A stretch of DNA of 43,034 nt, taken from a virus. Every line of letters begins with the position of its first letter. Within the stretch, counting starts at the first letter, position 1. Under the pieces are notes generated by a model. That model ran no database searches and had not been told where the DNA came from. It saw only the letters and a list, made by a program, of their open reading frames with translations. The translations under genes were made by a program, and so were the position numbers. Shown here in pieces: positions 31,464-41,909 of the stretch. The DNA is taken from IMG/VR virus record IMGVR_UViG_3300044627_004278, positions 1-43,034 of that record; one strand, given 5' to 3'.

Positions 31464-32243
31464 TCAAACTAAAAGTTCAGGATAAACAATTATTGGATTT
31501 AAAATTTCTTTAATATTTACCGAATGGCCATTTTCTTTCCACCAATTTAAAATTAAAGTATTAGAATTGATGTGAGCACATTTATCTTCTTCACCTTTAT
31601 CCGGGAAAACAGATTGCAAATTTATATTTTCAATCAATAGTGGTAAATTATAAGTTTTACCTCCCATATACATTATATTTTCACATATAGGCCATGCTTC
31701 TGCATTTGGTATTGTAAAATTAAATAAATTTATATCTTTAATATACCAATCTATTAATTTTTTTGCATAAGATCTCTTTATCAAAGAAAATAAACCAAAT
31801 TCTTGTATAATTCTTGGATGTAAATGATATGTAAGCCTTTGTGTACCATAGGTTATATTGCCTAAATGTATACATTCCCAATCATCTGGCAAATTGTTTT
31901 CAAATTCTTCCCAAGTAAAATTCCAATAATTTGCTGTTTCAAATGAAACATCATCTTCTAAAAACAGAGCGGAATTGTCATCTGTTGTTTCATACCATTC
32001 TTTTATTGCCAACAAATGTGATGCAGTCACATAATGACCTTTAATCGATCCTAATTCATTTATTCTGTGACCAGTTATTATTTTTTTTGAATCAGATTCT
32101 TCAGTAGATATTTTTAAATCATAATTGTTGATATTATAATTTTTAAAATGATCTATGATATAGTTTTGCCTATCTATACATGTCTCGTAAGACATGCAAT
32201 AAATTTTTGGTAAATTTTTTAATTTATTTTCCAAAGATACCAT
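31464..32243 (-). CDS. Glycosyltransferase family 25-like protein
   Basis: A 259-residue protein with the GT25 (LPS/collagen galactosyltransferase type) layout: an N-terminal KIYCMSYETCIDRQNYIIDHF, GSIKGHYVTASHLLAIKEWYE near the middle, and ALFLEDDVSF as the DXD-like metal and nucleotide-sugar site. It is probably a cytoplasmic enzyme that transfers a sugar to a glycan or protein. Phages can use such enzymes to modify host surface sugars or virion proteins. It is one base from a TPR gene and near a GH130-like gene, forming a small glycan cassette. Confidence 0.75.
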   Translation of the reverse strand: MVSLENKLKNLPKIYCMSYETCIDRQNYIIDHFKNYNINNYDLKISTEESDSKKIITGHRINELGSIKGHYVTASHLLAIKEWYETTDDNSALFLEDDVSFETANYWNFTWEEFENNLPDDWECIHLGNITYGTQRLTYHLHPRIIQEFGLFSLIKRSYAKKLIDWYIKDINLFNFTIPNAEAWPICENIMYMGGKTYNLPLLIENINLQSVFPDKGEEDKCAHINSNTLILNWWKENGHSVNIKEILNPIIVYPELLV

Positions 32244-32244
32244 A

Positions 32245-32754
32245 TTACAATTTTATATCAAGATCTTTTATAAATTGGAATGAATCGTCTTCTGCCTTCA
32301 TACCACATTTATGTGCAAACAATAATTTTTTTAATTTAAATTCAAGATCACCTTTATATGATATTGGTTCTCTTAATTTTTCATTTACATCACAATACTG
32401 TTCTCCAATACAAATCATCATATAAGAATTATGATGCATTGCAAGTTTGTAAAAAACATCTGCAATAAAAAGATATGCTTCAGGTCTATTTGGAAGAATA
32501 GAGATTGCATTTTGAAAAAATGATTTTTCTGTATAAAGCCTGCTGCCTTGTCTTCTTATTGCAAGACCCGCACGAATCATACATTCATATTGAAGTAATT
32601 TATCATCACTTCTTTCAGCACATCGAATATAATGTGATATTGCAGAAGCAACCTGATTCATAGAATCATAAGTTAAAGCTATTTTAAAATTTATTTCTGG
32701 ATCTTCAGTATTGTGTGTATATTCGATTAGTTGAGTTGATAAACGATCTATCAT
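32245..32754 (-). CDS. TPR-type helical repeat protein
   Basis: A 169-residue protein. It contains tetratricopeptide-like helix pairs: NFKIALTYDSMNQVASAISHYIRCAE, then YECMIRAGLAIRRQG and FFQNAISILPNRPEAYLFIADVFYKL, each with the Ala/Gly spacing of TPR units. TPR proteins bind other proteins. The genes on both sides are a GT25-like enzyme and a GH130-like protein, so it may organise a glycan-modifying complex. Its start overlaps the end of the GH130-like gene by 4 bases. Confidence 0.6.
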   Translation of the reverse strand: MIDRLSTQLIEYTHNTEDPEINFKIALTYDSMNQVASAISHYIRCAERSDDKLLQYECMIRAGLAIRRQGSRLYTEKSFFQNAISILPNRPEAYLFIADVFYKLAMHHNSYMMICIGEQYCDVNEKLREPISYKGDLEFKLKKLLFAHKCGMKAEDDSFQFIKDLDIKL

Positions 32755-33731
32755 AAATTCAACAGCCTTTCAATTATATTTTCGGGCACTTTTAATAAAC
32801 ATGCAGAATTATCTTGGAATCCAAAAGTTATGTAAAAATGTTCGTCTTTAAATGCCATTCCAGCACAAAATTCAATATCACCACCCAAAAAACTAAAATC
32901 ATCAGACCAACCAATTTTTACAAAATTTTTATCCCATAAAACAATTCTGTGTCTATAGATTCCATCTTTTCTTCCTATAAAATCATTAAAAAGATCTACT
33001 TCATGTGTAATAGTAATATAATAATTTTTCCAAGGAATTACTTGAGATCCACCTCTCAAATCTCTATTCAAAGATCTATACTCACCCACATAAACTTGTT
33101 TCGATGACAAATTATTAATATCTACTTTTACTAATTCTGTTGGGTTTGTCCATTTAACATAATGAAATGGTTTATCTAAAACTGGCATCCAGTTTTTTTC
33201 ACAATAGCTATCTTTATCTATAGGTGGTTCAATTCTATAACGTTTTATTTCTTTTACAGAATAATTATTAATTGACAATTCCGATAATTCAATTCTTCCT
33301 TGCCCGTTTGTTGTGGTATCTCTTCTTACCCCTGATAGATACATCTTATTGTCCCAATAAACAATTCTAGCATCTTCAAGTCCAACAAATTCCCATAAAG
33401 GCTCAACATCAAGCAGTGATGTATCGATAACAAGATTTTTTGAAACTAAACCATTATCATCAATTTCACAATAATAATTTGTTGTTTTTAATTTTTGATA
33501 ATGTTCTGGGTGCAAATATACAAGTGGTCCCCACTCATGTAAAAACTTTTTCTTTTCAGAATGATAAATTGTATAATTTACATGACGTAAAATTACAATA
33601 GTTTTTCCTTCATGAAAAATAATAGAAGGATTCATTAATCCTGTGCCATCAGTTAATGATGCAGGAATTATTAAAGGTGTAATTCTACCGCCGTTATCAA
33701 TTGTTAATTTTGCTAAAGGTTGATTCAACAT
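32751..33731 (-). CDS. GH130-like glycoside phosphorylase/beta-propeller protein
   Basis: A 326-residue protein resembling glycoside hydrolase family 130 (mannoside phosphorylases, five-bladed propeller). Matching points: GLMNPSIIFHEGK near the N terminus, WEFVGLEDARIVYW (the conserved GxEDAR), SYCEKNWMPVLDKPFHYV (EKNW/P), RDLRGGSQVIPW, and CAGMAFKDEHFYITFGFQD. Phosphorylases of this family cut mannosyl linkages using phosphate; the activity of this phage copy is unproven. It adjoins TPR and GT25 genes. The whole group uses AT-rich codons. Confidence 0.7.
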   Translation of the reverse strand: MLNQPLAKLTIDNGGRITPLIIPASLTDGTGLMNPSIIFHEGKTIVILRHVNYTIYHSEKKKFLHEWGPLVYLHPEHYQKLKTTNYYCEIDDNGLVSKNLVIDTSLLDVEPLWEFVGLEDARIVYWDNKMYLSGVRRDTTTNGQGRIELSELSINNYSVKEIKRYRIEPPIDKDSYCEKNWMPVLDKPFHYVKWTNPTELVKVDINNLSSKQVYVGEYRSLNRDLRGGSQVIPWKNYYITITHEVDLFNDFIGRKDGIYRHRIVLWDKNFVKIGWSDDFSFLGGDIEFCAGMAFKDEHFYITFGFQDNSACLLKVPENIIERLLNL

Positions 33732-33733
33732 AA

Positions 33734-34297
33734 TTAAAAAGGAATAGTCTCTGCAATGTATATAGGTGATTTATTTGCAAACCATTCTGGAATATTACCA
33801 ATTTTCCATTTTGCAAATCGTTGTTTTTCATTGATGTAATATTTTCTATAAGCTGTCACTGCATTTTCATCTTTATATTGTTCTGGCATAGCCTGAGCAA
33901 AAGGAGTTAGTTTTCCCTTTGGGATATTTACAGGTGCATTATAAAGTTCATCCATCAACATTGCTTCCATAGAATGCACTTTATTGCCATATCTCGCAGA
34001 GTATTCTTTGCACAAAGCATATGCATGCTTCCATAGCCACATGTAATTTTTTCTGCTTTCGCGGACCCAAATACTACATGGGTGATTAATCATAGTTGCT
34101 TTGCAAATATTTTTCTTTGTGCAAATACTAGTCTGGTATTTTCTTTTTCCAGTATCTACGTGAAGGATTTCACCATCAAGAACATGATGTGCAGTCGAAA
34201 GCAATTGGCAAGATTCAACAATCATCTTAACTACATGCTTATCGCACATCATTTGTGCAGAAATTTCCGGCTGTTCATCCAATACAAAAATATTCAT
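33734..34297 (-). CDS. Conserved phage protein of unknown function (CDKHVVKM family)
   Basis: A 187-residue protein. The opening MNIFVLDEQPEISAQMMCDKHVVKMIVESCQLLSTAHHV, the middle NHPCSIWVRESRKNYMWLWKHAYALCKEYSARYG, and a later PFAQAMPEQYKDENAVTAYRKYY belong to a family that recurs in dsDNA phages. Conserved His, Cys, Asp and Trp residues suggest an enzyme or nucleic-acid-binding protein, but I cannot name an activity. It overlaps the GMP reductase gene by 4 bases and is probably co-expressed with it. Confidence 0.6.
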   Translation of the reverse strand: MNIFVLDEQPEISAQMMCDKHVVKMIVESCQLLSTAHHVLDGEILHVDTGKRKYQTSICTKKNICKATMINHPCSIWVRESRKNYMWLWKHAYALCKEYSARYGNKVHSMEAMLMDELYNAPVNIPKGKLTPFAQAMPEQYKDENAVTAYRKYYINEKQRFAKWKIGNIPEWFANKSPIYIAETIPF

Positions 34298-35328
34298 ACT
34301 TCGTGACTTTCAAAAATGTTGTTAATAGTACGATTTACTTTAATCAGTTTACCACGTGAATATAGTTCAGGCAAATTAAAAGCGCCAACATAAGAGCAAG
34401 CCGAGCGCAACCCACCAAAAATTTCCTGTATCGTATTTCGTACAGATCCCTTGTATGGTACTTCAACAGTTCTTCCTTCCGATGCTCTATAATCGGAAAG
34501 CCCACCATTGTACTTTTCATTCGCAGTCTTACTGCTCATGCCATAGTGCAACATTCGGAGCTCTCCATGCTCACCGTGTCTTATTTCACCACCACACTCA
34601 TCGTGGCCAGCAAACATTCCTCCAGCCATTACAAAGGCTGCGCCTGCCACATATGATTTTGCAAAATCTCCGGGGTATATGATACCGCCGTCAGCAACGA
34701 TCCCAATATCTAATGCTTCTGCTGTCGCAGCACATTCTAATACCGCTGATAGCTGTGGATAGCCCACGCCTGCCACTCGCCGGGTCAGACACATCGATCC
34801 CGATCCTATCCCCACTTTTACGAGATCTACTCCAACTTTTGACAATTCCTCTACCCCCTCTGGGGTCACGACATTCCCTGCAATCAAAATAGACTTCGGC
34901 CATTTTTCTCTAACCTTTCTTGTAAAATTATGAAACTCGGTCATGTAGCCGTTTGCTACATCTACACAAACAAACGTAGGATCTTTGATGTCTGCACTAT
35001 CTACAAACAATCTGCTTTCGTTATCTAAGCCCAAAGTAAGAGAAACATATTTTTCTTTATCGGGATAAGACGATATAAAATTTAAATAATAGTTTCCACC
35101 TTTTCTCAGGCATGTTACCATTTTTTGTTCGGCCAATACTGCAGCCATTTGGTGTGTTCCAACGGTTGACATATTTGCAGCCATAATCGGAACACCAGTC
35201 CATTCTGTTCCATTTTTGAATGTCTTACTGACTTCAAGTGAGACATCTTTTCGAGAACGAACATTGCTTGTCGCCGGAACAATCAGCGCATCTAAATAAT
35301 CTAGTTTTGGTTCATAATTTAGAATCAT
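34294..35328 (-). CDS. guaC: GMP reductase (GuaC-like)
   Basis: A 344-residue TIM-barrel enzyme that closely follows bacterial GuaC (about 347 residues), which converts GMP to IMP using NADPH. The catalytic loop is KVGIGSGSMCLTRRVAGVGYPQLSAV with the nucleophilic Cys; GuaC-specific context includes VADGGIIYPGDFAKS, FVMAGGMFAGHDECGGE and a C-terminal GLRSACSYVGAFNLPEL. It lacks the CBS insert of IMP dehydrogenase. Codons are more GC-rich than in flanking genes. A sigma70-type promoter (35337-35364) ends 8 bases before the ATG, and no Shine-Dalgarno sequence is seen, so the leader is very short. It is probably an auxiliary metabolic gene for purine remodelling. Confidence 0.88.
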   Translation of the reverse strand: MILNYEPKLDYLDALIVPATSNVRSRKDVSLEVSKTFKNGTEWTGVPIMAANMSTVGTHQMAAVLAEQKMVTCLRKGGNYYLNFISSYPDKEKYVSLTLGLDNESRLFVDSADIKDPTFVCVDVANGYMTEFHNFTRKVREKWPKSILIAGNVVTPEGVEELSKVGVDLVKVGIGSGSMCLTRRVAGVGYPQLSAVLECAATAEALDIGIVADGGIIYPGDFAKSYVAGAAFVMAGGMFAGHDECGGEIRHGEHGELRMLHYGMSSKTANEKYNGGLSDYRASEGRTVEVPYKGSVRNTIQEIFGGLRSACSYVGAFNLPELYSRGKLIKVNRTINNIFESHEV

Positions 35329-35336
35329 TGATGAAT

Positions 35337-35364
35337 ATCATAACATATCATATCAAATGGTCAA
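35337..35364 (-). promoter_or_regulatory. Sigma70-type promoter for the GMP reductase gene
   Basis: TTGACC (35359-35364), 16-base spacer, TATGAT (35337-35342), then 8 bases to the ATG. The predicted leader is 1-2 bases, so this gene may also be leaderless. Confidence 0.6.
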
Positions 35365-35367
35365 TAA

Positions 35368-35541
35368 TTATTTTGACTCTTCTATTCTTTTAACCGCATC
35401 TCTAAGACTTAACATTTTTTGTGCCAATTCTTTAGAAGTTATTTTTTGACGCAAATAATCTTCATATTTTGATATGATTATTTTTGCTTCACGGAACAGT
35501 ACTGCGTGAAGATGGTTATTTTTTTTGTCTTCTTGTTCCAT
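35368..35541 (-). CDS. Small helical protein (57 aa)
   Basis: A 57-residue protein with ATG at 35541-35539 and TAA at 35370-35368. It is basic and helical: HAVLFREAKIIISKYEDYLRQKITSKELAQKMLSLRDAVKRIEE looks like one long amphipathic helix or helical hairpin. Its first codons (MEQ) and the preceding ATTTTAATGGAACA repeat those of the gene upstream, suggesting a duplicated start region. ATAAATA at 35548-35554 ends 6 bases before the ATG, the same late-promoter spacing as in other leaderless genes. Function unknown. Confidence 0.6.
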   Translation of the reverse strand: MEQEDKKNNHLHAVLFREAKIIISKYEDYLRQKITSKELAQKMLSLRDAVKRIEESK

Positions 35542-35547
35542 TAAAAT

Positions 35548-35554
35548 TATTTAT
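35548..35554 (-). promoter_or_regulatory. Possible late promoter for the 57-aa gene
   Basis: ATAAATA on the minus strand, 6 bases before the ATG at 35541. It overlaps the stop codon of the upstream gene, so chance cannot be excluded. The spacing fits the other late elements. Confidence 0.4.
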
Positions 35555-36162
35555 TCTGTACCAATTGTTTCATCGCGGATAAATCTAAAAACACTATCCA
35601 CATAAAATGATTTCCACATCTGTTCGTTTATGTCCCATATTCCAAGTCTATCGCCGGAAAGAGGAGAAAAGAAATTTTTTCTGGCTCCATATTCCTTTGT
35701 GGGAAGCATAGATGGTTCCAATGTTCCAGTCAATCTTCTGGAAGAGCCATCCGTTCTTTTAATAAAGAATACTGTGCAAACTCCACTGAGCAATTCTAAA
35801 ATAATTTCGTGTGTAGAAATATGATCTGATGTATAGGACTCTTCTTTATTTACTATTTTGACATCAATTCTATAATCTACTCCCGGATCAAACACGTTAG
35901 TATTTTGATTTATTTTAAATTGCTGTAGATAATTTTCATATGATCCATATGCTTCTGCAATAAAATTTTTGTATAAAAGATCATTGTTTTGTAATTTTTG
36001 ATATGTTCTTAGTTGATAGTCAGAGCCACCATACTCACCTTTAAATGGTTTAGACTCAAAATAAGAAAAATTTGATTCTTCAAATTCTTTTTTTAATTGT
36101 GTTCTCTGCCTATCCAGAGAAGACAATGCTGAACGGATATTGTTTTGCTTTGACTGTTCCAT
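35551..36162 (-). CDS. DUF2693-like small beta-barrel protein with helical N terminus
   Basis: A 203-residue protein. The C-terminal ~80 residues (CTVFFIKRTDGSSRRLTGTL ... RLGIWDINEQMWKSFYVDSVFRF) match a small beta-barrel family of phages with the pattern 'v.F.y.K.dG..R...gt ... yWDl...dWRsf..d.v', which I read as DUF2693-like. The N-terminal ~110 residues are helical and unique. Two proteins of the GC-rich region (40364-40654 and 42139-42477) carry the same core. Function unknown. The ATG overlaps the preceding stop as TAATG. Confidence 0.6.
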   Translation of the reverse strand: MEQSKQNNIRSALSSLDRQRTQLKKEFEESNFSYFESKPFKGEYGGSDYQLRTYQKLQNNDLLYKNFIAEAYGSYENYLQQFKINQNTNVFDPGVDYRIDVKIVNKEESYTSDHISTHEIILELLSGVCTVFFIKRTDGSSRRLTGTLEPSMLPTKEYGARKNFFSPLSGDRLGIWDINEQMWKSFYVDSVFRFIRDETIGTE

Positions 36163-36407
36163 TAAAATTCTAATACAATTACATTTTTTTTCTTCATTAT
36201 ATTTTTTGGTTTAATATCAAAATTTTCCATTGCACTTGAAATCTGGTTTGAAGCAAAGACTGGAAATTTTAAATATATCGAACTGAAAGGAAGTTTTTTT
36301 TCTTCTATAATTTGTTCAAAAACTTTTTTTATTTCTTCTATAAAATTTTTATTCATACCCGATACAACATATACAATACCATGAATATTTTGGATTTTAT
36401 AAATCAT
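36162..36407 (-). CDS. Unrecognised small protein (81 aa)
   Basis: An 81-residue protein starting at the ATG at 36407 (MIYKIQNIHG), preferred over a GTG at 36443 that would add twelve residues of no obvious fold. It looks like a small alpha/beta protein: a strand GIVYVVSGM, a helix NFIEEIKKVFEQIIEEKKL, and a strand NVIVLEF at the end. No family recognised. It is the first gene after a 200-base palindrome-rich spacer and ends in overlap with the DUF2693-like gene. Confidence 0.5.
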   Translation of the reverse strand: MIYKIQNIHGIVYVVSGMNKNFIEEIKKVFEQIIEEKKLPFSSIYLKFPVFASNQISSAMENFDIKPKNIMKKKNVIVLEF

Positions 36408-36609
36408 CTTTATTATTTGCTTTACTAAAAATATATAGTACACTCACAGGAACTTTTAAGTTCTCTAGAGTACTTTATAATAATCTCTCTAAAGAGTATA
36501 TTAAAGTATATCTAAAGAAACTTTAAAGTAACTTTCATTGATTCAAGATATTCAATAACTTTTGATTTTTCGGTTTTTTCGCTTATAATAAATAGCGTAC
36601 ATACCCCAT
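36408..36609. other. Palindrome-rich AT spacer between leftward and rightward genes
   Basis: No gene is visible. The stretch 36448-36530 contains several short inverted repeats: GAACTTTTAAGTTC, CTCTAGAG, CTCTCTAAAGAG and a TTAAAGT/ACTTTAA pair. TCTAAAG-like and ACTTTAA-like words recur. It separates divergently transcribed genes. It could be a control region or a replication start; the sequence alone does not decide. Confidence 0.5.
36562..36589 (+). promoter_or_regulatory. Sigma70-type promoter for the HNH protein gene
   Basis: TTGATT (36562-36567), 16-base spacer, perfect TATAAT (36584-36589), then 20 bases to the ATG. The leader has no Shine-Dalgarno sequence (TACCCCAT precedes the ATG). 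Confidence 0.6.
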
Positions 36610-37002
36610 ATGCCAATAGACCTATTTGATCATCAATACGATTGTGGTACCACTAATAATCGTTTAACGGAGCACAGAAATGGATGTAGATGTGATGTTT
36701 GCAGAAAAGAAAAAGCAATAGACGATAATAAACGTTATGTAAAAGCCCAAAAATACGTTTCAAGAGTTAAAAGACTTTTTGGATGCCAAGATTGTAAAAA
36801 TCCAGAAGTATCTGATTTGCTTATTCTACATCATGAACAGGCAAAAGATGAAAATTATACAAAACTTTCTTCATGCAAAAGCATTTTTGGTGCAAAAAAA
36901 GAAATTCGAAAGGGTGTACTATTGTGTCCAAACTGCCATGCAAGAAGGCATCAAGATCCCGTGACAAAAATTGTAGATTATCGAAATAAAAATTTGAGAT
37001 AA
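36610..37002 (+). CDS. HNH-type zinc endonuclease-like protein
   Basis: A 130-residue protein with paired CxxC motifs (CRCDVCRKEK, FGCQDCKNP) followed by LLILHHEQ and VLLCPNCHARRHQ. That is the zinc ribbon plus HH...H set of HNH endonucleases. Such proteins act as homing endonucleases or in DNA packaging. Here it is free-standing, next to the change in base composition, and transcribed alone by its own promoter. Whether it is a homing element cannot be told without relatives that lack it. Confidence 0.7.
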   Translation: MPIDLFDHQYDCGTTNNRLTEHRNGCRCDVCRKEKAIDDNKRYVKAQKYVSRVKRLFGCQDCKNPEVSDLLILHHEQAKDENYTKLSSCKSIFGAKKEIRKGVLLCPNCHARRHQDPVTKIVDYRNKNLR

Positions 37003-37044
37003 CCCGCACAGAGCCCTAGAATGCCCTATACAGAGTTTTGTATT

Positions 37045-37167
37045 TCACCGGGCCGAGCACTGGCTAGCAAGTAAAGAACCTACCACAAGCGATCCTACAA
37101 TGATTCCGATGGTAAACCAATCAAAGGGTGTGGAGTTTTTCCATAAATTGTAGAAAAAATCTTTCAT
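37045..37167 (-). CDS. Tiny single-span membrane protein (40 aa)
   Basis: A 40-residue protein, ATG at 37167-37165. It has a basic/aromatic N terminus (MKDFFYNLWKNSTPFDW) and one clear hydrophobic span, FTIGIIVGSLVVGSLLAS, near residues 18-35. It converges with the HNH gene. CTAAATA (37174-37180) ends 6 bases before the ATG, the same late-promoter spacing as the gp48/54-like gene, which is the main support for a gene this short. A holin, spanin or other envelope role is possible but not shown. Confidence 0.55.
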   Translation of the reverse strand: MKDFFYNLWKNSTPFDWFTIGIIVGSLVVGSLLASQCSAR

Positions 37168-37173
37168 GCAACC

Positions 37174-37180
37174 TATTTAG
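37174..37180 (-). promoter_or_regulatory. Late promoter placed for a leaderless mRNA of the 40-aa gene
   Basis: CTAAATA on the minus strand, then GGTTGC and ATG (6-base spacer). It stands at the border of the GC-rich region. Confidence 0.5.
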
Positions 37181-37231
37181 ACCATTTTCCGCCCAAAAAT
37201 TTTTTGAGCCATCCCATGGTTTTTGAGAATT

Positions 37232-37261
37232 GGGGTTAGGGGGGTGGGGGTACTGGACGGG
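37232..37261 (+). other. Candidate G-quadruplex
   Basis: Four runs of G (4, 6, 5 and 3 bases) with loops TTA, T and TACTGGAC. The last loop is longer than the usual cutoff, so folding is possible but not certain. It lies between late and early modules. Confidence 0.35.
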
Positions 37262-37375
37262 ATCAAAATTATTTGAGAAAATTAAAGAGGTATGAGAGAA
37301 TTGAGGGGGTGGAGAGCTAGCCCGCCCAAATATTAATATTTCTTAGGGGACCCATTTTACTGTTTGGACACGACC

Positions 37376-37413
37376 ACCAAGGAGATTCTACCACACCCCC
37401 TTCTCCTTGTCAA
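37376..37413 (-). promoter_or_regulatory. Tagged promoter 1 (leftward; tag variant CTCCTTGGT)
   Basis: TTGACA (37408-37413), 17-base spacer, TAGAAT (37385-37390), then CTCCTTGGT in place of CTACTTGGT. It points toward the junction and the tiny membrane gene. Confidence 0.75.
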
Positions 37414-37429
37414 CCCCCCCACCTACAAT

Positions 37430-37508
37430 AACACAGCAGCCTCTCTCCCGCCCCATCATTCGGCCCGTGTAACGGGCAGGGGGCATTGGGTTCGGAGGCT
37501 GCTGTGTT
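37430..37508 (-). terminator. Long hairpin after early gene A
   Basis: A perfect 14-bp stem, AACACAGCAGCCTC against GAGGCTGCTGTGTT, encloses about 50 bases that hold an inner GCCCGT/ACGGGC hairpin. Other early terminators here share the AACAC...GTGTT base. The T tract is weak, so it may be a structured 3' end rather than a pure terminator. Confidence 0.5.
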
Positions 37509-37537
37509 CCCGATTGTACCGTATGTTCGTTTCCCTG

Positions 37538-37879
37538 TCAAGCGACAGGGGTCGCCTCCTCTCGCATGATGCGAACCAGTTGACCCGCGTACTTACGGAT
37601 CAACTTCCGCGCGTAGATCATCTGCTTCTCCGACAGCGTACCGCGCTTGATCGCCTGCGTTGCGAGGCTGCTGCCGAACTCCGCATCGAACCCCGAGAAG
37701 CCGTAGCCGTTGTCGTGGGTTGTGGCCGCACTCTGCTTCTCGTCAGCCGTCTGACGGTTGTAGATGGCGATCAGAGCCTCAACGACGAGGCCGTCGTTAG
37801 TGGTCATCTCCTCGCGCACGGCGAGGGTGGCCTGCTTGACGGGGGCGGTGAGAACGAGTTCGTAGGTGGTGCTGTTCAT
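37538..37879 (-). CDS. Early gene A: unrecognised small protein (113 aa)
   Basis: A 113-residue protein starting at 37879 (MNSTTYELVL). The C-terminal LSEKQMIYARKLIRKYAGQLVRIM is a basic helical segment of a kind seen in small phage DNA-associated proteins; the N terminus is beta-like. No function assigned. The mRNA from its proximal promoter should be leaderless: TACTAT, 6 bases, ATG. Tagged promoter 2 lies 85-115 bases upstream and would give a longer leader. The stop lies within a CCTGTC/GACAGG hairpin. Codon usage is GC-rich, unlike the late genes. Confidence 0.65.
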   Translation of the reverse strand: MNSTTYELVLTAPVKQATLAVREEMTTNDGLVVEALIAIYNRQTADEKQSAATTHDNGYGFSGFDAEFGSSLATQAIKRGTLSEKQMIYARKLIRKYAGQLVRIMREEATPVA

Positions 37880-37885
37880 GCGTTC

Positions 37886-37915
37886 ATAGTACCATACCCC
37901 CCCTTCCCCTGTCAA
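37886..37915 (-). promoter_or_regulatory. Leaderless-type promoter of early gene A
   Basis: TTGACA (37910-37915), 18-base spacer, TACTAT (37886-37891), GAACGC, ATG. Confidence 0.75.
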
Positions 37916-37954
37916 GGGGGTGAAGCGACAGCGAAACCAATAAATTATTTCCAA

Positions 37955-37993
37955 ACCAAGTAGAGTATACCATGACCCCCTCCACTTTGTCAA
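37955..37993 (-). promoter_or_regulatory. Tagged promoter 2 (leftward, distal promoter of early gene A)
   Basis: TTGACA (37988-37993), 18-base spacer, TATACT (37964-37969), CTACTTGGT. It is back-to-back with tagged promoter 3. Confidence 0.8.
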
Positions 37994-38006
37994 GAACCCC
38001 CACCAC

Positions 38007-38044
38007 TTGACACCAACGGCCTCCCGTGGTACAATCTACTTGGT
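38007..38044 (+). promoter_or_regulatory. Tagged promoter 3 (rightward, against early gene B)
   Basis: TTGACA (38007-38012), 17-base spacer, TACAAT (38030-38035), CTACTTGGT. The downstream 44 bases are nearly the same as after tagged promoter 4. Confidence 0.8.
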
Positions 38045-38104
38045 GCGCTTTGTCAATTTCAGAAAAAATTGAAAAACACAACGCCCCCTTCGGGGCGTTG
38101 TGTT
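38045..38104 (+). ncRNA. Possible short antisense/structured RNA from tagged promoter 3
   Basis: The predicted transcript holds TCAATTT/AAATTGA and then a 13-bp stem, about 60 bases in all. It shares its first 44 bases with the tagged promoter 4 transcript. No T tract follows on this strand, so read-through into antisense of early gene B is equally possible. Confidence 0.3.
38075..38104 (-). terminator. Terminator of early gene B
   Basis: AACACAACGCCCC stem of 13 bp with a 4-base loop. On the minus strand it is followed by TTTCAATTTTTT, a good T tract. Confidence 0.85.
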
Positions 38105-38147
38105 CCCTTCGTTCAGTCCCTCCCCGCATCACCGCAGGGGGTGCAAA

Positions 38148-38474
38148 TCATTCCCTCGCGGTCGTGTAGTGTAGTCGGCATCCGGGGTCATTTGAAAACC
38201 ACATGGTGCCCGAATCCGATTGCGCGACGGTGCTGGTGATGGTGATGGTGTCTCCCACCTTCACCGGGCAGTCTGCGAGTTTGGCGGGGTCGCGCACGGC
38301 ATTGCTGATGTACCCCCACACCATGCGCCCGTCAGCCATCCGGACGGTCATTGCAACGCGGTGAAAGGTGCCGTATTCAACGCTTGAGCGGAAGCGGCGC
38401 GTGTAGCCCTTCCAACGCTTCTGCACAATCTTGGTTTTCAGGCTCACGATCATGCCCATGTTCTCGCTGCTCAT
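38148..38474 (-). CDS. Early gene B: small OB-like beta protein (108 aa)
   Basis: A 108-residue protein with a basic N-terminal half (KTKIVQKRWKGYTRRFRSS) and a beta-rich C-terminal half: VRMADGRMVWGYISNAV, VGDTITITSTVAQSDSG, TMWFSNDPGC. The pattern 'DG..v.G.i....... l.Gd.vt.tatv..s....fgf..rP' recalls small OB-like phage proteins. Function unknown. It differs from most genes in this region by having a real leader: the promoter at 38524-38551 starts RNA about 43 bases upstream, with a GCCCC/GGGGC hairpin and then AGGAGAC as ribosome-binding site. Confidence 0.65.
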   Translation of the reverse strand: MSSENMGMIVSLKTKIVQKRWKGYTRRFRSSVEYGTFHRVAMTVRMADGRMVWGYISNAVRDPAKLADCPVKVGDTITITSTVAQSDSGTMWFSNDPGCRLHYTTARE

Positions 38475-38523
38475 GTCGTTGTCTCCTGTGGCCCCATTCG
38501 GGGGCGGTTAGTGGTATGTCTGT

Positions 38524-38551
38524 ATGATAGCACACCCCCCCTCTCTGTCAA
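38524..38551 (-). promoter_or_regulatory. Promoter of early gene B (leadered)
   Basis: TTGACA (38546-38551), 16-base spacer, TATCAT (38524-38529). The leader contains a hairpin and AGGAGAC before the ATG at 38474. Confidence 0.7.
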
Positions 38552-38561
38552 CCCCTCCACC

Positions 38562-38577
38562 AAAGAAATATTTCTTT
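38562..38577. promoter_or_regulatory. 16-base perfect palindrome between divergent promoters
   Basis: AAAGAAATATTTCTTT lies between the early gene B promoter and tagged promoter 4. A perfect AT-rich palindrome in GC-rich DNA is a plausible protein-binding site. Confidence 0.5.
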
Positions 38578-38587
38578 CATCCACCAC

Positions 38588-38625
38588 TTGACATGGGGCC
38601 GGGAGTCTGGTACAATCTACTTGGT
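38588..38625 (+). promoter_or_regulatory. Tagged promoter 4 (rightward, against early genes C/D)
   Basis: TTGACA (38588-38593), 17-base spacer, TACAAT (38611-38616), CTACTTGGT. Confidence 0.8.
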
Positions 38626-38683
38626 GCGCTTTGGCAATTTCAGAAAAAATTGAAGAAACACCATCGACTACGGTCGATGGTGT
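38626..38683 (+). ncRNA. Possible short antisense/structured RNA from tagged promoter 4
   Basis: Parallel to 38045-38104: the same GCGCTTTG, TTTCAG and AAAAAATTGAA words, then a different hairpin (38658-38683) at the same place. The second stem keeps its shape while its sequence changes. Confidence 0.3.
38658..38683 (-). terminator. Terminator of early genes D-C
   Basis: An 11-bp stem ACACCATCGAC/GTCGATGGTGT with TACG loop (plus-strand sense). On the minus strand it is followed by TTCTTCAATTTTTT. Confidence 0.8.
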
Positions 38684-38695
38684 CCTTCCAGCCCT

Positions 38696-38911
38696 CTAAC
38701 TGCCCCAGTCCTTGTGTCCTCCTGTGGCACACATTTCCTCGTAGCCTGCTCTGTATGCTTCGATCTCTTCGGGGTCGGTCAGTTCGACCCGTTCGCATTG
38801 GTAGGTCCCCTGCGGGTACTTGTGCGGCCTGAATGCCCTTCTGTACCACGCATCCGCCGAACCACGGTCATAGGGAGAACCGTGCCAGTCTGGATACTTC
38901 TTGTCGCTCAT
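38696..38911 (-). CDS. Early gene C: small conserved-looking phage protein (71 aa)
   Basis: A 71-residue protein starting at 38911 (MSDKKYPDWHG), with AAGGAG 7 bases upstream. The core PYDRGSADAWYRRAFRPHKYP and later LTDPEEIEAYRAGYEEM match a small phage family in which 'RGsaDayYgRpf.Ph' and 'aY..Gy' recur. Function unknown. The ATG overlaps the stop of gene D as ATGA, so it is the second gene of a two-gene unit and uses a conventional ribosome-binding site. Confidence 0.65.
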   Translation of the reverse strand: MSDKKYPDWHGSPYDRGSADAWYRRAFRPHKYPQGTYQCERVELTDPEEIEAYRAGYEEMCATGGHKDWGS

Positions 38912-39237
38912 GCGTTGCTCCTTCCAACATGTCGGACGGTCGAAATCAGAAAATCGCGGTACTCCTTGTCTTGAGGAAGATCTGCTGCCCACTCGCTGTA
39001 GGGGATCACATCAAGAATGTGGGTCTGGCTGTAGTTGTCGCAGACGAGGGTGGGCATGGCCGCGATAGCCTCCTCGCGGGTAGCCACGCCGTAGATGAAG
39101 TAGTCGTCGCCGCCCTTGAACTTCCAGTACTGGGGGCATTCGCCGGTGCCGTCCCAGTCGTGTGCGCCGTAGTTCTCGCGGAACTGGGTGATGACAACGA
39201 AGGCGGGAGCGTTTGAAACGGTGGTGGTGGTGTCCAT
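38908..39237 (-). CDS. Early gene D: conserved-looking phage protein (109 aa)
   Basis: A 109-residue protein whose VVITQFRENYGAHDWDGTGECPQYWKFKGGDDYFI resembles a recurrent phage protein family ('REnYGAHdWdGkGeCPqYWKfKGG'). The strong conservation of Trp, Asp, His and Cys residues suggests a defined binding site, but no activity is known to me. The proximal promoter gives TAAAAT, 6 bases, ATG, predicting a leaderless mRNA. The N-terminal codons are repeated ACC. Tagged promoter 5 provides a distal start. Confidence 0.7.
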   Translation of the reverse strand: MDTTTTVSNAPAFVVITQFRENYGAHDWDGTGECPQYWKFKGGDDYFIYGVATREEAIAAMPTLVCDNYSQTHILDVIPYSEWAADLPQDKEYRDFLISTVRHVGRSNA

Positions 39238-39243
39238 GCGATC

Positions 39244-39272
39244 ATTTTAGCACAGGCCGACGAGGGTGTCAA
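39244..39272 (-). promoter_or_regulatory. Leaderless-type promoter of early genes D-C
   Basis: TTGACA (39267-39272), 17-base spacer, TAAAAT (39244-39249), GATCGC, ATG. Confidence 0.8.
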
Positions 39273-39312
39273 GCACCTTTCAAACACAAATTTTTGTTAC
39301 TTATTTTTGCCC

Positions 39313-39351
39313 ACCAAGTAGAGTATACCATGACCCCTAGCGGGTTGTCAA
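39313..39351 (-). promoter_or_regulatory. Tagged promoter 5 (leftward, distal promoter of early genes D-C)
   Basis: TTGACA (39346-39351), 18-base spacer, TATACT (39322-39327), CTACTTGGT; about 80 bases before gene D. Confidence 0.8.
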
Positions 39352-39366
39352 GTTCCGATAATGGCA

Positions 39367-39388
39367 CAACCCCCCTTTCGGGGGGTTG
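39367..39388 (-). terminator. Terminator of early gene E
   Basis: CAACCCCCC stem of 9 bp with a TTTC loop (plus-strand sense). The T tract on the minus strand is poor, so efficiency is uncertain. Confidence 0.65.
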
Positions 39389-39409
39389 CTGTTTTCCGAT
39401 CCTCCTTTT

Positions 39410-39685
39410 TTACTTGGTCGCCAATTCCATCAGGGCGGCGAAGTCTGTGTCGCTGATGCGGAGCAGCCCCTGCTGCTCCATCCAGAGGACGTACTGGGCG
39501 TAAACCTTGACCTTGTTGCCCTTGAAGCCGAGTTCGCGCTTGATGATCGTGTAGCAGGTCGGAGCCTTGCTCGTCAGGCGAATCTTGTGCATGATCTCGC
39601 CCTCCAAGCCGATGCGGAGAGTGTGGGCGCGTAGCGCGTTGATCTGGGCGGGGGTGGAGAGAACGATGGAGGAGTTGGTGCTCAT
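39410..39685 (-). CDS. Early gene E: unrecognised small helical protein (91 aa)
   Basis: A 91-residue, mostly helical, slightly basic protein: INALRAHTLRIGLEGEIMHKIRLTSKAPTCYTIIKRELGFKGNKVKVYAQYVLWMEQQGLL. The 'CYTIIKRELGFKG' turn resembles a DNA-binding helix-turn-helix spacing, so a regulator is possible but unproven. The promoter gives TAGAAT, ACACAC, ATG, predicting a leaderless mRNA. It is monocistronic, with a hairpin after its stop. Confidence 0.6.
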   Translation of the reverse strand: MSTNSSIVLSTPAQINALRAHTLRIGLEGEIMHKIRLTSKAPTCYTIIKRELGFKGNKVKVYAQYVLWMEQQGLLRISDTDFAALMELATK

Positions 39686-39691
39686 GTGTGT

Positions 39692-39720
39692 ATTCTAACA
39701 CAACCCCACCACCATGTCAA
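39692..39720 (-). promoter_or_regulatory. Leaderless-type promoter of early gene E
   Basis: TTGACA (39715-39720), 17-base spacer, TAGAAT (39692-39697), ACACAC, ATG. Confidence 0.8.
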
Positions 39721-39752
39721 GGGGTGAAGCGATAAGTCCGGTAACACCTCGT

Positions 39753-39790
39753 TTGACAACAAAGACACCTTGTGGTACAATCTACTTGGT
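39753..39790 (+). promoter_or_regulatory. Tagged promoter 6 (rightward, against early gene F)
   Basis: TTGACA (39753-39758), 17-base spacer, TACAAT (39776-39781), CTACTTGGT. AAGTCCGGTAAC begins 19 bases before the -35 box, as at tagged promoter 8. Confidence 0.8.
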
Positions 39791-39827
39791 CGCTCTTAAA
39801 AATTTCAAATTTCAAAGAAACAAAGAA

Positions 39828-39843
39828 GCCCCCTTTCGGGGGC
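39828..39843 (-). terminator. Terminator of early gene F
   Basis: GCCCCC, TTTC, GGGGGC (plus-strand sense). On the minus strand it is followed by TTCTTTGTTTCTTT. Confidence 0.8.
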
Positions 39844-39852
39844 CGGGAGGGT

Positions 39853-40212
39853 TTAGCCCTCCGCGTGTTGGTCCCAGTAGAGCAAGTGCTCCTCATCGGC
39901 CTCGTAGCCGGGGTCCTCGGTGGCATCCGCCTGCGCGTCCGCCTCCGCCATGTTCGCGCGGTCCAAGATTTCCTCGCACACCCCGCAGAGGGTGTCCGAG
40001 CCAGCGCAGACGCAGCAGGCGGGGCGGGTGGTTTCTTCGGCCTCGTAGCCCCATTCCTCCAATGCCTCAATTTCCTCCTCGCGGCGAGCCTCGCGCTCGC
40101 GCGCCTGCTCCTCCTCGCAAAACGGGCAGAGGCTGTCCGTGTAGGCATACTCGGCGCGGTGGCAGAAGCAGGGGAAGTGTTCGTCTTCGTGGTTGTGGGT
40201 GGTGTTGCACAT
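39853..40212 (-). CDS. Early gene F: acidic cysteine-rich zinc-ribbon-like protein (119 aa)
   Basis: A 119-residue very acidic protein with three cysteine groups: FPCFC, LCPFCEEEQ, and CCVCAGSDTLCGVCEEI. The CxxC pairs around 21-30 and 67-80 suggest one or two zinc ribbons. The middle EEEQAREREARREEEIEALEEWGYE is a charged helix, and the tail is acidic. It could bind host RNA polymerase or another protein, as small acidic phage proteins often do, but that is inference. The promoter gives TAGAAT, GGCATC, ATG, predicting a leaderless mRNA; tagged promoter 7 lies about 85 bases upstream. Confidence 0.62.
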   Translation of the reverse strand: MCNTTHNHEDEHFPCFCHRAEYAYTDSLCPFCEEEQAREREARREEEIEALEEWGYEAEETTRPACCVCAGSDTLCGVCEEILDRANMAEADAQADATEDPGYEADEEHLLYWDQHAEG

Positions 40213-40218
40213 GATGCC

Positions 40219-40247
40219 ATTCTAGCATACCGGGGCGGAGTTGTCAA
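40219..40247 (-). promoter_or_regulatory. Leaderless-type promoter of early gene F
   Basis: TTGACA (40242-40247), 17-base spacer, TAGAAT (40219-40224), GGCATC, ATG. Confidence 0.8.
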
Positions 40248-40285
40248 GAGCCTATTCCCGCGATTTACATATAAAGGCAAAGCCC

Positions 40286-40323
40286 ACCAAGTAGATTCTA
40301 CCACGATGTTCTCAAAATGTCAA
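40286..40323 (-). promoter_or_regulatory. Tagged promoter 7 (leftward, distal promoter of early gene F)
   Basis: TTGACA (40318-40323), 17-base spacer, TAGAAT (40295-40300), CTACTTGGT. Its -35 overlaps the base of the gene G terminator. Confidence 0.8.
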
Positions 40324-40352
40324 CCCCCACCCCCCTTCGGGGGGTGGGGGTT
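40322..40352 (-). terminator. Terminator of early gene G
   Basis: A 14-bp, almost pure C/G stem with a TTC(G) loop and little T afterwards on the minus strand. It is very stable and abuts tagged promoter 7. Confidence 0.75.
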
Positions 40353-40363
40353 CTGTCGGGCTG

Positions 40364-40654
40364 TTAGGCCCGGTTCGGGTTTACTACGATTGCTTCGATC
40401 CGTTCGATCCGTTCGGTCTTGCATGACCGCCAATCTTGCGCGGTGAGATCCCAGTAGGAGATCATGTTCTCCGGCATCCGGCGGGTTCCCTTCGGGATGT
40501 TCGCGCTCGGAATCAACTGGTCATCGTTGGTTCCCAACGCGATCCGCAGAGAGCCATCCATCTTGCGATAGACGAATCGAACGATGCCCACGGCCATTGC
40601 CGCGCGGAGGTTTGAGGCGAGAGGGTAGGAGGAAACGGTGGTGGTGAGTGTCAT
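40364..40654 (-). CDS. Early gene G: DUF2693-like small beta protein (96 aa)
   Basis: A 96-residue protein with a DUF2693-like core: GIVRFVYRKMDGSLRIALGT, then a loop and MISYWDLTAQDWRSCKTERIERI. It shares this core with early gene K and with the C terminus of the AT-rich gene at 35551-36162, so the same family spans both composition regions. Function unknown; the fold is probably a small SH3-like barrel. The promoter gives TATACT, GCGGGC, ATG, predicting a leaderless mRNA. Confidence 0.7.
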   Translation of the reverse strand: MTLTTTVSSYPLASNLRAAMAVGIVRFVYRKMDGSLRIALGTNDDQLIPSANIPKGTRRMPENMISYWDLTAQDWRSCKTERIERIEAIVVNPNRA

Positions 40655-40660
40655 GCCCGC

Positions 40661-40689
40661 AGTATAGCAGACGACTCCAAAGGTGTCAA
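40661..40689 (-). promoter_or_regulatory. Leaderless-type promoter of early gene G
   Basis: TTGACA (40684-40689), 17-base spacer, TATACT (40661-40666), GCGGGC, ATG. Confidence 0.8.
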
Positions 40690-40702
40690 GTCACCACATG
40701 GC

Positions 40703-40714
40703 AAGTCCGATAAC
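40703..40714 (+). promoter_or_regulatory. AAGTCCGATAAC element upstream of tagged promoter 8
   Basis: AAGTCCGATAAC starts 19 bases before the -35 box. Copies occur at 39734-39745 (one change; also 19 bases from its -35) and 40783-40794 (30 bases from its -35). A reverse partial copy is at 42068-42076. Confidence 0.5.
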
Positions 40715-40721
40715 ACTCGGC

Positions 40722-40759
40722 TTGACAACGGAGACACCTTGTGGTACAATCTACTTGGT
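40722..40759 (+). promoter_or_regulatory. Tagged promoter 8 (rightward, distal promoter of early gene H)
   Basis: TTGACA (40722-40727), 17-base spacer, TACAAT (40745-40750), CTACTTGGT. Confidence 0.8.
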
Positions 40760-40812
40760 GAAATAAAATAAAAACACGGGGAAAGTCCGATAACGCAATG
40801 TTGCATGGGGGC

Positions 40813-40841
40813 TTGACACCATCGGCAGCGTGTGGTAAGAT
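40813..40841 (+). promoter_or_regulatory. Proximal promoter of early gene H (leadered)
   Basis: TTGACA (40813-40818), 17-base spacer, TAAGAT (40836-40841), then TGGCGC and ATC. The position that is ATG in other genes is ATC here, and the gene instead starts 45 bases later after GGAGAC. Confidence 0.7.
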
Positions 40842-40892
40842 TGGCGCATCGGGCCGTGTGGCCCAGTCAACACCCTCTACGGAGACAGTCAG

Positions 40893-41285
40893 ATGAACAG
40901 CACCACCCAGTTCCTCCCCGGCTTCGAGTCCCTGATGATGGCCGATCCGCGCCCATCCAACACGGCGAACACCCACGCGCCTCGCGGCCTCGGCGGTAAG
41001 CGCGGCGTTCAGTATTCGGCGTCCACCGAACAGATCGCAGGATCGAACTACGTTCACCGCGAGTTCCGCGCTGCGGTCTGGACGCTCACCTCCGGCGACC
41101 GTTGCGTGTCGGTGAAGGTGCAGGCCGATGCTTCGGACAGGATCGGCTACCACTTCGGATCCATGCTCGTCCGATCCGTCGATGGCAACTACGTTTCCGT
41201 CGGCATGGACGCAGAGCAGATGCGTTCGGTCGCCGCTGCCCTCCTCGCCGCCGCCAACTCCTGCGGAGCCAAGTGGCGCAAGTAA
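40893..41285 (+). CDS. Early gene H: unrecognised protein (130 aa)
   Basis: A 130-residue protein, mixed alpha/beta. The middle EFRAAVWTLTSGDRCVSVKVQADASDRIGYHFGSMLVRSVDGNYVSVGM looks like a beta-sheet, followed by a helix AEQMRSVAAALLAAANSCGAKWRK. No family recognised. Unlike most neighbours it has a leader with a GGGCC/GGCCC hairpin and GGAGAC as ribosome-binding site, similar to early gene B. It is the first rightward gene and ends in a very GC-rich palindromic terminator. Confidence 0.6.
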   Translation: MNSTTQFLPGFESLMMADPRPSNTANTHAPRGLGGKRGVQYSASTEQIAGSNYVHREFRAAVWTLTSGDRCVSVKVQADASDRIGYHFGSMLVRSVDGNYVSVGMDAEQMRSVAAALLAAANSCGAKWRK

Positions 41286-41295
41286 GAACGGGATG

Positions 41296-41321
41296 GGGGA
41301 GGGGCCGCGCGGCCCCTCCCC
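41296..41321 (+). terminator. GC-rich palindrome after early gene H
   Basis: A perfect 26-base palindrome centred on CGCG with GGGG and CCCC at its ends. It is followed at once by the gene I -35 box and has no T tract, so it may be a roadblock or partial terminator. Confidence 0.65.
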
Positions 41322-41350
41322 TTGACACTCGCACACCCAACAGGTACAAT
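41322..41350 (+). promoter_or_regulatory. Leaderless-type promoter of early gene I
   Basis: TTGACA (41322-41327), 17-base spacer, TACAAT (41345-41350), ACACCC, ATG. Confidence 0.85.
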
Positions 41351-41356
41351 ACACCC

Positions 41357-41548
41357 ATGAACACGCTCTTCCCCGTCCTTCGCATCGTTTCGATCCTCAA
41401 CGCCATTGCCGCTGGCATCTTCGGAGTATGGATGGCTTTCAACGGAGACACCTATGGCAGCGTCTTCTGCCTTGTGATGGGAGCCATCTCCATCGTCCTC
41501 TCGCTGTTTGCCAATAAGTGCCAGAAAGAATATTTCTCCACTCGTTGA
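41357..41548 (+). CDS. Early gene I: small two-span membrane protein (63 aa)
   Basis: A 63-residue protein with two hydrophobic stretches, ILNAIAAGIFGVWMAF and SVFCLVMGAISIVLSLFA, joined by NGDTYG, and a basic C-terminal tail (NKCQKEYFSTR). It is a hairpin-type inner membrane protein. Early phage membrane proteins can alter host transport or exclude other phages; which applies here is unknown. The start is the ATG 6 bases after TACAAT, not an upstream in-frame codon, so the mRNA is leaderless. Its stop lies within the -35 box of gene J. Confidence 0.7.
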   Translation: MNTLFPVLRIVSILNAIAAGIFGVWMAFNGDTYGSVFCLVMGAISIVLSLFANKCQKEYFSTR

Positions 41549-41549
41549 C

Positions 41550-41578
41550 TTGACTTCCCGCACCACCTACGGTACAAT
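41550..41578 (+). promoter_or_regulatory. Leaderless-type promoter of early gene J
   Basis: TTGACT (41550-41555), 17-base spacer, TACAAT (41573-41578), ACACCC, ATG. A second TTGACT begins five bases upstream. Confidence 0.8.
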
Positions 41579-41584
41579 ACACCC

Positions 41585-41872
41585 ATGAATCGCACCACCG
41601 TTGCAGACCTCGTCCTTTCCGTTCGCCACCTGAACTCGGCTATGGGATTCTCCGATGATGCCGCAGCAGCCATCGGCGTGAACTCCGCTCCCGGTTCCTA
41701 CTTCTTGCAGGGAGCCTACGGAGGCTGGCAACTTCAGCGCGTCCACCCGATGGGTGGGTGCGAGTCCGTGACCTCGGGCTACCGCAGCAAGCGGGAACTG
41801 AACGAACTGGTGAACGCGATCCGCTACGGCGTACTGGAGGGGACGGTGCGTATGACCGGGCTAACGATCTAA
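41585..41872 (+). CDS. Early gene J: unrecognised small protein (95 aa)
   Basis: A 95-residue protein. It has an N-terminal helix (VADLVLSVRHLNSAMGFSDDAAAA), a central GSYFLQGAYGGWQLQRV beta hairpin, and a C-terminal helix (SKRELNELVNAIRYGVLEG). The pattern recalls small phage proteins that present a 'G.y.l..AYGG..L.r' hairpin. Function unknown. The mRNA is predicted leaderless. The stop codon begins the conserved 3' element shared with gene L. Confidence 0.6.
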   Translation: MNRTTVADLVLSVRHLNSAMGFSDDAAAAIGVNSAPGSYFLQGAYGGWQLQRVHPMGGCESVTSGYRSKRELNELVNAIRYGVLEGTVRMTGLTI

Positions 41873-41909
41873 CGAGGTGGTGCTCGTCAACCGAAAAGGC
41901 TAACGCCCT

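Follow-up and report, generated by a model that had tools for sequence, protein, structure and literature searches.

Genes and features of the locus

The window analysed here, the whole of a 43,034-base virus record, is a contig from an uncultured T4-like phage, and its relatives were taken from IMG/VR. T4-type portal, terminase, gp32 and tail tube genes are all present: the portal matches phrog_213 (E 3e-187), and the terminase, tail tube, baseplate hub and gp32 were also identified in the left 37 kb. The T4-type replisome (DNA polymerase, primase, helicase, clamp loader, UvsX, gp46/gp47) is found in the relative G004, the window itself being only a fragment. By tblastn, the window terminase is at best about 49% identical to cyanophage terminases, and no DNA-level relatives of positions 30,000-43,034 were found among 50,697 phage records. 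Compared with the Kyanoviridae T4-like phages, including Pelagibacter phage HTVC008M, the lineage shows identities of 48-51% for terminase, 41% for DNA polymerase and 44-48% for cobS. The elements of the left side and of the junction are listed below.

1..36,443, no strand: AT-rich T4-like block (portal, tail tube, sheath, terminase, baseplate hub, gp32, a GMP-reductase-like gene and others)
36,610..37,002, plus strand: HNH endonuclease gene (phrog_2255, E 5e-11), an insertion
37,045..37,167, minus strand: conserved ORF of 40 aa, the last gene before the switch, with a TAAATA late-like core just upstream
about 37,236..37,254, plus strand: G-rich run, identical in the relative G005, absent in G004
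37,316..37,393, minus strand: near-invariant leader and tagged promoter with a 12-codon ORF, from the alignment of window, G005 and G004
37,366..43,034, no strand: GC-rich island (GC 0.57, GC3 0.80), running past the window end

The left block, 1..36,443, is syntenic with positions 38.7-79.1 kb of G004, at 65-87% DNA identity. The HNH gene lies outside the matched segments, its site being occupied in both G004 and G005 by other AT-rich genes; used as a database anchor, it gave no matches.

A sharp switch in base composition

The GC content of 1-kb intervals ranges between 0.25 and 0.42 over positions 1-37,000, and between 0.53 and 0.60 from 37,001 onward. At a resolution of 200 bp, it rises from 0.33 at 36.8 kb to 0.56 at 37.35-37.55 kb. 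The initial annotation had described a sharp AT-to-GC switch accompanied by a change in codon usage, and both features were confirmed: a maximum-scoring-segment scan placed the edge at 37,366, with a GC content of 0.572 inside and 0.320 outside (score 525, as compared to 16 for the next-best segment), and GC3 is 0.19 for the 44 genes on the left and 0.80 for the 12 genes on the right. A transition zone, with a GC content of 0.43, spans 37,003-37,371. The first tagged promoter (37,376-37,413, minus strand), with which a dense promoter array starts, is located at this edge.

The G-rich run, the late core and the first tagged promoter, all previously assigned to the junction, are indeed found there. 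The G-rich run was rejected as a functional part, since it is missing from G004 and is thus not a conserved element of the junction. The leader at 37,316-37,371 (minus strand) contains a 12-codon ORF which is almost unchanged between window and G004. A structured RNA in this leader was also considered and rejected, as the predicted fold of the surrounding 226 nt is weaker than those of shuffled sequences (z = +1.7). The product of the 40-aa ORF at 37,045-37,167, in which one hydrophobic stretch may be recognized by eye, is probably a membrane protein; a homologous ORF is seen in G004, by eye and by alignment, while G005 is without that part.

Genes with the PF10902 domain (formerly DUF2693) had been noted on both sides of the switch, and are found there with different scores: on the left, 35,551-36,162 scores 26.7 bits, exactly at the cut-off; on the right, 40,364-40,654 scores 65.9 bits and 42,139-42,477 scores 25.5 bits, just below the cut-off. 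As had also been observed, gp32 and the GMP reductase gene, with GC3 values of 0.43 and 0.33, are more GC-rich than most genes of the left part.

The two compartments belong to one replicon

A junction of this kind could be produced by an assembly chimera, in which an AT-rich phage is joined to a GC-rich contig, and some contigs of relatives do stop at or near the junction (L137, L148). In G005 (31 kb) and G004 (137 kb), however, which come from two different datasets, one contig each contains the junction block together with the left flank and with parts of the island, and the junction block 37,316-37,393 is nearly invariant in window, G005 and G004. Since the same junction, with both flanks, is present in independent assemblies, the chimera was rejected, and we regard it as extremely unlikely. 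The AT-rich and the GC-rich parts of the window are one replicon, as had been proposed: relatives in separate assemblies cross the junction.

Further relatives were sought by using the junction-adjacent GMP reductase as a query. Out of 80 loci, 56 hold at least 3.5 kb of upstream sequence, and a GC segment with a score of at least 60 was found in 28 of these. Five distant loci (47-49% identity), two of which pass marginally, with a GC content of 0.50, were set aside. The remaining 51 loci all have 3.5 kb or more of upstream sequence and a GMP reductase of 70% identity or higher, and 26 of them carry the segment. In this count some loci represent one phage repeated (e.g. L141, L183), and G004 and G005 are themselves included. 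Since the upstream sequence covered is 10 kb at most, a miss applies to that distance only, and G018, whose island is about 11 kb away, is scored as a miss. Seven additional loci were retrieved by a junction 16-mer and inspected for GC only: three lie at a GC step (L304, L305, L306) and four do not. The L137 and L148 contigs end about 100-130 bases into the GC-rich sequence past the switch, as if assembly tended to break there.

Extent, gene content and distribution of the island

The right part of the window is a compact island cut by the window end, not half a genome. The whole island, with both edges, is contained in four records, where it measures 12.0 kb (G004), 11.3 kb (G017), 11.1 kb (G018) and 12.7 kb (G021), with a GC content of 0.55-0.57 inside and 0.34-0.37 outside. 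G016 (135.8 kb) is a weak case, its island having a GC content of 0.51 and being probably cut by the record ends. The highest GC content of a 10-kb interval exceeds the genome mean by about 0.12 to 0.20 in G004, G017, G018, G019, G021, G022, G025 and G032, by 0.09 in G016, and by 0.03 to 0.08 in six cultured T4-like phages. No comparable GC island is present in these six, which include three cyanophages and Cr30, a T4-like phage of Caulobacter, a high-GC host.

The island genes of the window are the following.

37,538..37,879, minus strand: phrog_21015, with homologs in proteobacterial phages
38,133..38,505, minus strand: cassette containing gene 38,148-38,474, shared at 96-98% identity with three contigs of 62-65% GC phage
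38,696..38,911, minus strand: ortholog in G004
38,908..39,237, minus strand: ortholog in G004
39,410..39,685, minus strand: island gene
39,853..40,212, minus strand: internal difference from G005 at an intragenic repeat
40,364..40,654, minus strand: WYL_2 (PF10902)
40,893..41,285, plus strand: ortholog in G004
41,357..41,548, plus strand: leaderless-type promoter
41,585..41,872, plus strand: leaderless-type promoter, ortholog in G004
42,139..42,477, plus strand: WYL_2-like, leaderless-type promoter
42,518..42,730, plus strand: leaderless-type promoter, ortholog in G004

The genes of G004 were called by a simple longest-ORF script; island genes were chosen by start site and verified by translation.

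Promoters and recombination at promoter tags

Positions 37,000-43,034 contain 26 promoter-like sites, as compared to 2.7 in shuffled sequences. Eleven of these promoters, five on the minus and six on the plus strand, carry the tag CTACTTGGT (in one case CTCCTTGGT) behind the -10 element.

37,376..37,413, minus strand: tagged promoter 1, the leftmost, TTGACA-17-TAGAAT followed by CTCCTTGGT
37,956..37,993, minus strand: tagged promoter 2, back to back with promoter 3
38,007..38,044, plus strand: tagged promoter 3
38,588..38,625, plus strand: tagged promoter 4
39,314..39,351, minus strand: tagged promoter 5, site of a deletion/insertion difference from G005
39,753..39,790, plus strand: tagged promoter 6
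40,286..40,323, minus strand: tagged promoter 7
40,722..40,759, plus strand: tagged promoter 8
41,948..41,985, plus strand: tagged promoter 9, convergent with promoter 10
41,986..42,021, no strand: 36-bp spacer between the inverted tags 9 and 10, exact reverse complement in G005
42,023..42,060, minus strand: tagged promoter 10
42,807..42,844, plus strand: tagged promoter 11

The tag occurs in window, G004 and G005; elsewhere there are just a few scattered matches to its core. The tagged promoters at 38,007, 38,588 and 39,753 (plus strand) run into a hairpin, and these hairpins are called opposite-strand terminators by the scan.

In other promoters an ATG is located exactly 6 nt past the -10 element, as in leaderless transcripts. 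In order to count such sites, only ATG starts with an ORF of at least 40 codons were considered, because the tag itself can end in GTG, which inflates a GTG-inclusive count. In 13 records (G009, with an island stretch of less than 2 kb, being left out), 111 leaderless sigma70-type sites with an ORF were found in about 105 kb of island sequence, and 37 in about 868 kb outside. The 6-nt spacing is kept in 103 of the 111 island sites, and islands of all 13 records contain promoters of this type.

Two rearrangements at tags distinguish window and G005: an inversion of the 36-bp spacer, and a difference of about 1.9 kb with its breakpoint inside tagged promoters. In the latter, the stretch that separates tagged promoters 1 and 5 in the window island is missing from G005, where a single promoter, a hybrid of both, is left. 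The spacer at 41,986-42,021 may be an invertible element, or may have been turned by plain recombination. One further difference, in gene 39,853-40,212, occurs at an intragenic repeat and not at a tag.

Island genes shared with phages of high GC content

A possible source of the high GC content is foreign origin: the island genes would have been imported from GC-rich phages sharing the host, and would not so far have moved to the AT-rich composition of the genome. Some genes do point in this direction. Three contigs of a phage with 62-65% GC, otherwise dissimilar to the window, contain the cassette at 38,133-38,505 with 96-98% identity; used as a database anchor, the cassette retrieved these three viral contigs and had no match among phage records, and it looks like a recent import or exchange. 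A contig of the cassette-bearing phage and a contig with a portal 100% identical to that of the window share the dataset number 3300044616. Two records having the cassette, G002 and G003, are uncultured small phages (37 and 36 kb) of 62% GC, with a phrog_38 terminase, an Erf-type annealing protein and a PAPS reductase.

As concerns the host, 84 of the 87 phage records matching the DUF7178 gene of the G004 island are, by name, phages of Actinobacteria, a figure which may also be taken in favour of import; relatives of the phrog_21015 island gene are found in proteobacterial phages. A search of genome contigs with the portal and the shared cassette gave 18 and 261 pattern matches, respectively, none confirmed as a relative. 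Since island genes point to actinobacterial and proteobacterial phages alike, no host is claimed.

GC content is maintained in diverging island genes

Seven of the 12 window island genes have orthologs in G004. At 4-fold degenerate sites, window and G004 agree in 0.47 of the positions in these seven genes (204 sites) and in 0.48 in 43 AT-rich genes (3,054 sites), a near-saturating divergence. The island genes nevertheless have a 4-fold GC content of 0.75 (window) and 0.80 (G004), as against 0.19 and 0.22, respectively, elsewhere. A model of drift towards late composition would predict, at that identity, an island value of 0.57-0.68; the test is small and the model simple. Swaps between G and C account for 38 of the island 4-fold sites (18.6%), where about 4-5% would be expected under drift and about 22-25% under a stationary composition; the observed values are nearer to the stationary case. 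Polarised substitutions in the island are only four, too few to be used. Window and G005 differ at 9 of 285 island sites and at 325 of 3,035 sites elsewhere, so that the island may also have been exchanged recently, or be under constraint.

A second line of evidence is provided by genes with T4-like counterparts. The AAA protein of the G004 island is cobS, with best matches in HTVC008M (47.7%) and cyanophages, and its near neighbour matches the "peptidase" of HTVC008M and S-P4 (26% identity to the former, E 2e-68), which is located near cobS in both phages. The GC3 of cobS is 0.22 in HTVC008M, 0.34 in S-P4 and 0.82 in G004; that of the peptidase gene is 0.19, 0.33 and 0.80, in the same order, while gp45 stays low (0.22 in HTVC008M, 0.24 in G004). 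The two genes are close together in Kyanoviridae as well, HTVC008M included, but they lie there near gp45 and the clamp loader, at low GC3. The window ends before them; among 12 relatives searched, several of them short, both were found in seven, and always within the island, with GC3 values of 0.77-0.86 in six and 0.64-0.65 in G016.

Foreign origin alone fails, because GC content is held through near-saturating divergence, with no drift towards the rest of the genome, and cobS, which like the peptidase is a T4-like gene with low GC3 elsewhere, reaches 0.82 here. The core island genes, moreover, are found clade-wide at GC3 near 0.8, as a gene set common to the relatives. Import can explain single cassettes, not the island, and as a general explanation we consider it unlikely.

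Codon-specific bias and intergenic composition

In G004, GC3 increases from structural (0.24, 38 genes) to replication (0.39, 12 genes) and island genes (0.79, 22 genes), the difference between replication and structural genes being significant (P = 6.5e-6). Two probably late genes outside the island exceed a GC3 of 0.4, namely 2,379-5,261 and 35,485-36,888 (0.43) of G004, the latter being presumably, from gene order, at the major-capsid position.

The bias also depends on the codon. In the islands of G004 and window, AAA is used for 13 of 200 Lys and GAA for 106 of 292 Glu codons (P = 1.8e-15), while the corresponding figures in G004 structural genes are 631 of 729 and 606 of 708 (P = 0.65). 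TTA is never found among the 293 Leu codons of the two islands.

These figures bear on a regional, non-selective push towards GC, due to GC-biased gene conversion or to a different mutation spectrum in a recombining, transcribed early region. The region does recombine, and its intergenic GC content is raised as well, to 0.52 in the window island and 0.51 in that of G004, as compared to 0.29 and 0.30 outside, so that codon usage is not the whole story. A uniform push would not account for AAA at 6.5% of Lys and GAA at 36% of Glu codons, both being A/G two-fold choices, unless neighbour-base effects on mutation play a part, nor for a GC3 of 0.79-0.80, well above intergenic GC. We regard such a push as distinctly unlikely to be the cause of the island.

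tRNA genes within the island

No tRNAs were identified by ARAGORN in the window, which ends before the tRNA part of the island, while G004 contains ten tRNAs and a permuted tmRNA. A cluster of Lys-TTT, Leu-CAA, Arg-TCT and Ile-TAT tRNAs (anticodons UUU, CAA, UCU and UAU) lies inside the island in 8 of 14 records (G004, G017, G018, G019, G021, G022, G025 and G032). At the GC-rich start of G016 there are three tRNAs of such a cluster (Leu-TAA, Arg-TCT and Ile-TAT), and none of the cluster tRNAs was found in the remaining five records, whose islands are cut by the contig or by the fetched end. G016 also differs by its lower island GC (0.51), a cobS GC3 of 0.64 and Leu-TAA in place of Leu-CAA; its host is perhaps lower in GC.

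The share of codons read by eight G004 tRNAs falls from 25.8% in structural genes to 18.3% in replication and 6.8% in island genes; the tRNAs for Tyr and Asn are uninformative in this respect, as each of them reads both codons of its pair. In the same three classes, AAA represents 0.87, 0.45 and 0.06 of Lys codons, AGA 0.65, 0.34 and 0.06 of Arg codons, and ATA 0.44, 0.12 and 0.02 of Ile codons. The weak point is Leu-CAA, which reads TTG, a codon with little contrast between classes (0.24, 0.22 and 0.17 of Leu codons). The cluster mostly reads codons which are common in AT-rich genes and rare in the island.

The permuted tmRNA of G004 (L098:1335-1613, at about 101.3-101.6 kb; RF04321, 81.8 bits) also occurs in G017, G018 and G021. 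The predicted tag peptide is ANIKAAPMRMAA in G004 and G017, ANELAMAA in G018 and ANQLAMAA in G021.

Phage tRNA sets combined with a codon usage differing from that of the host are dealt with in PMC13015707; in the present case a single genome contains both sides of the contrast, with the tRNA cluster inside its GC-rich part.

Proposed role of the island

Given a conserved island, its promoter anatomy, the fit of codons and tRNAs, a maintained GC content and two rearrangements at tags, the best reading is probably that of an early, host-type, recombining island, kept at host-like GC content and codon usage for translation. The early timing, the GC-rich host and translational selection as the cause are inferred from these features, and early and late classes were assigned from promoters and gene functions only. 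A compact early region of an AT-rich T4-like lineage would then have the switch as its left boundary, and a complete copy would measure about 11-12.7 kb. Small genes make up this region; most of them have a host-type sigma70 promoter to themselves, and many would be translated from mRNAs without a leader. Its composition would be host-like, on the assumption that its codons are those of the host, because the genes need immediate translation by an unmodified host machinery favouring GC-ending codons. The island tRNAs, made early, would serve the codons of the AT-rich replication and structural genes. The repeated promoter tags would let recombination lose, gain and invert cassettes, as in hyperplastic regions bearing PeSLs (promoter-early stem-loops), and by the same route the region may also take up genes from other GC-rich phages.

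The initial annotation had suggested that composition may follow expression time and host translation rather than origin alone. That origin alone is not the cause is supported by the 4-fold GC, by cobS and the peptidase, by the codon-specific bias and by the tRNA set; a dependence on expression time may exist, as far as the assigned classes go. Against the translational reading, Cr30 has no such island, although its host is of high GC content; the raised intergenic GC and the probably late genes with a GC3 above 0.4 speak against it as well.

A more specific proposal, which appears rather unlikely, is that selection has produced two translation regimes, a GC-rich, leaderless early set with host codons and an AT-rich set unlocked by phage tRNAs, with codon usage acting as a timer.

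Relation to known systems

The nearest parallel is offered by the PeSL hyperplastic regions, which according to Arbiol et al. 2010 and Comeau et al. 2014 are reportedly made of promoter-early stem-loop cassettes recombining among small variable genes. Like the island, these regions combine arrays of strong host-type promoters, small variable genes, nearby hairpins and recombination at repeats, by which cassettes are removed, added or inverted. In the island, many strong sigma70-type promoters are found among small variable genes, and cassette shuffling is represented by the two events described above. Unlike PeSL regions, the island has a conserved tag on many promoters, many leaderless promoters, and a GC content about 20 points above that of the genome; we know of no composition switch in PeSL hyperplastic regions.

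PeSL cassettes of T4-type phages are described in PMC4503421, where these two studies are cited. The same paper deals with the "ORFanage" of the T4-like phage S-PM2, a contiguous, deletion-prone block of orphan genes beside a host-like early promoter, and indicates that PeSLs are much denser in other T4-like phages. The "ORFanage" resembles the island, both being blocks of orphan genes next to a host-like early promoter and prone to deletion. The GC rise in the whole S-PM2 genome is weaker, with a 10-kb maximum of 0.46 over a mean of 0.378, and may not coincide with the "ORFanage". No description of a compositional early island in a T4-like phage was found among the titles and abstract openings of the literature searched, which is weak evidence for its novelty.

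The gap in composition between phages and hosts, and the role of phage tRNAs, are long-standing questions, approached for the most part by comparing different genomes. In the present case the contrast is found within one genome, is conserved in the clade, and includes genes with low-GC T4-like counterparts (cobS, peptidase). As the tRNA cluster matches the other compartment, origin and translation become directly testable against each other, with early and late genes as mutual controls. If the two regimes proposed above were real, the AT-rich codons would be poorly read by the host until unlocked by tRNAs (and, in some members, by the permuted tmRNA) made from or near the island, and late protein synthesis would be held back until the phage tRNAs are made. 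A GC-rich block inside an AT-rich genome is a natural test of whether a virus tunes the composition of its genes to translation.
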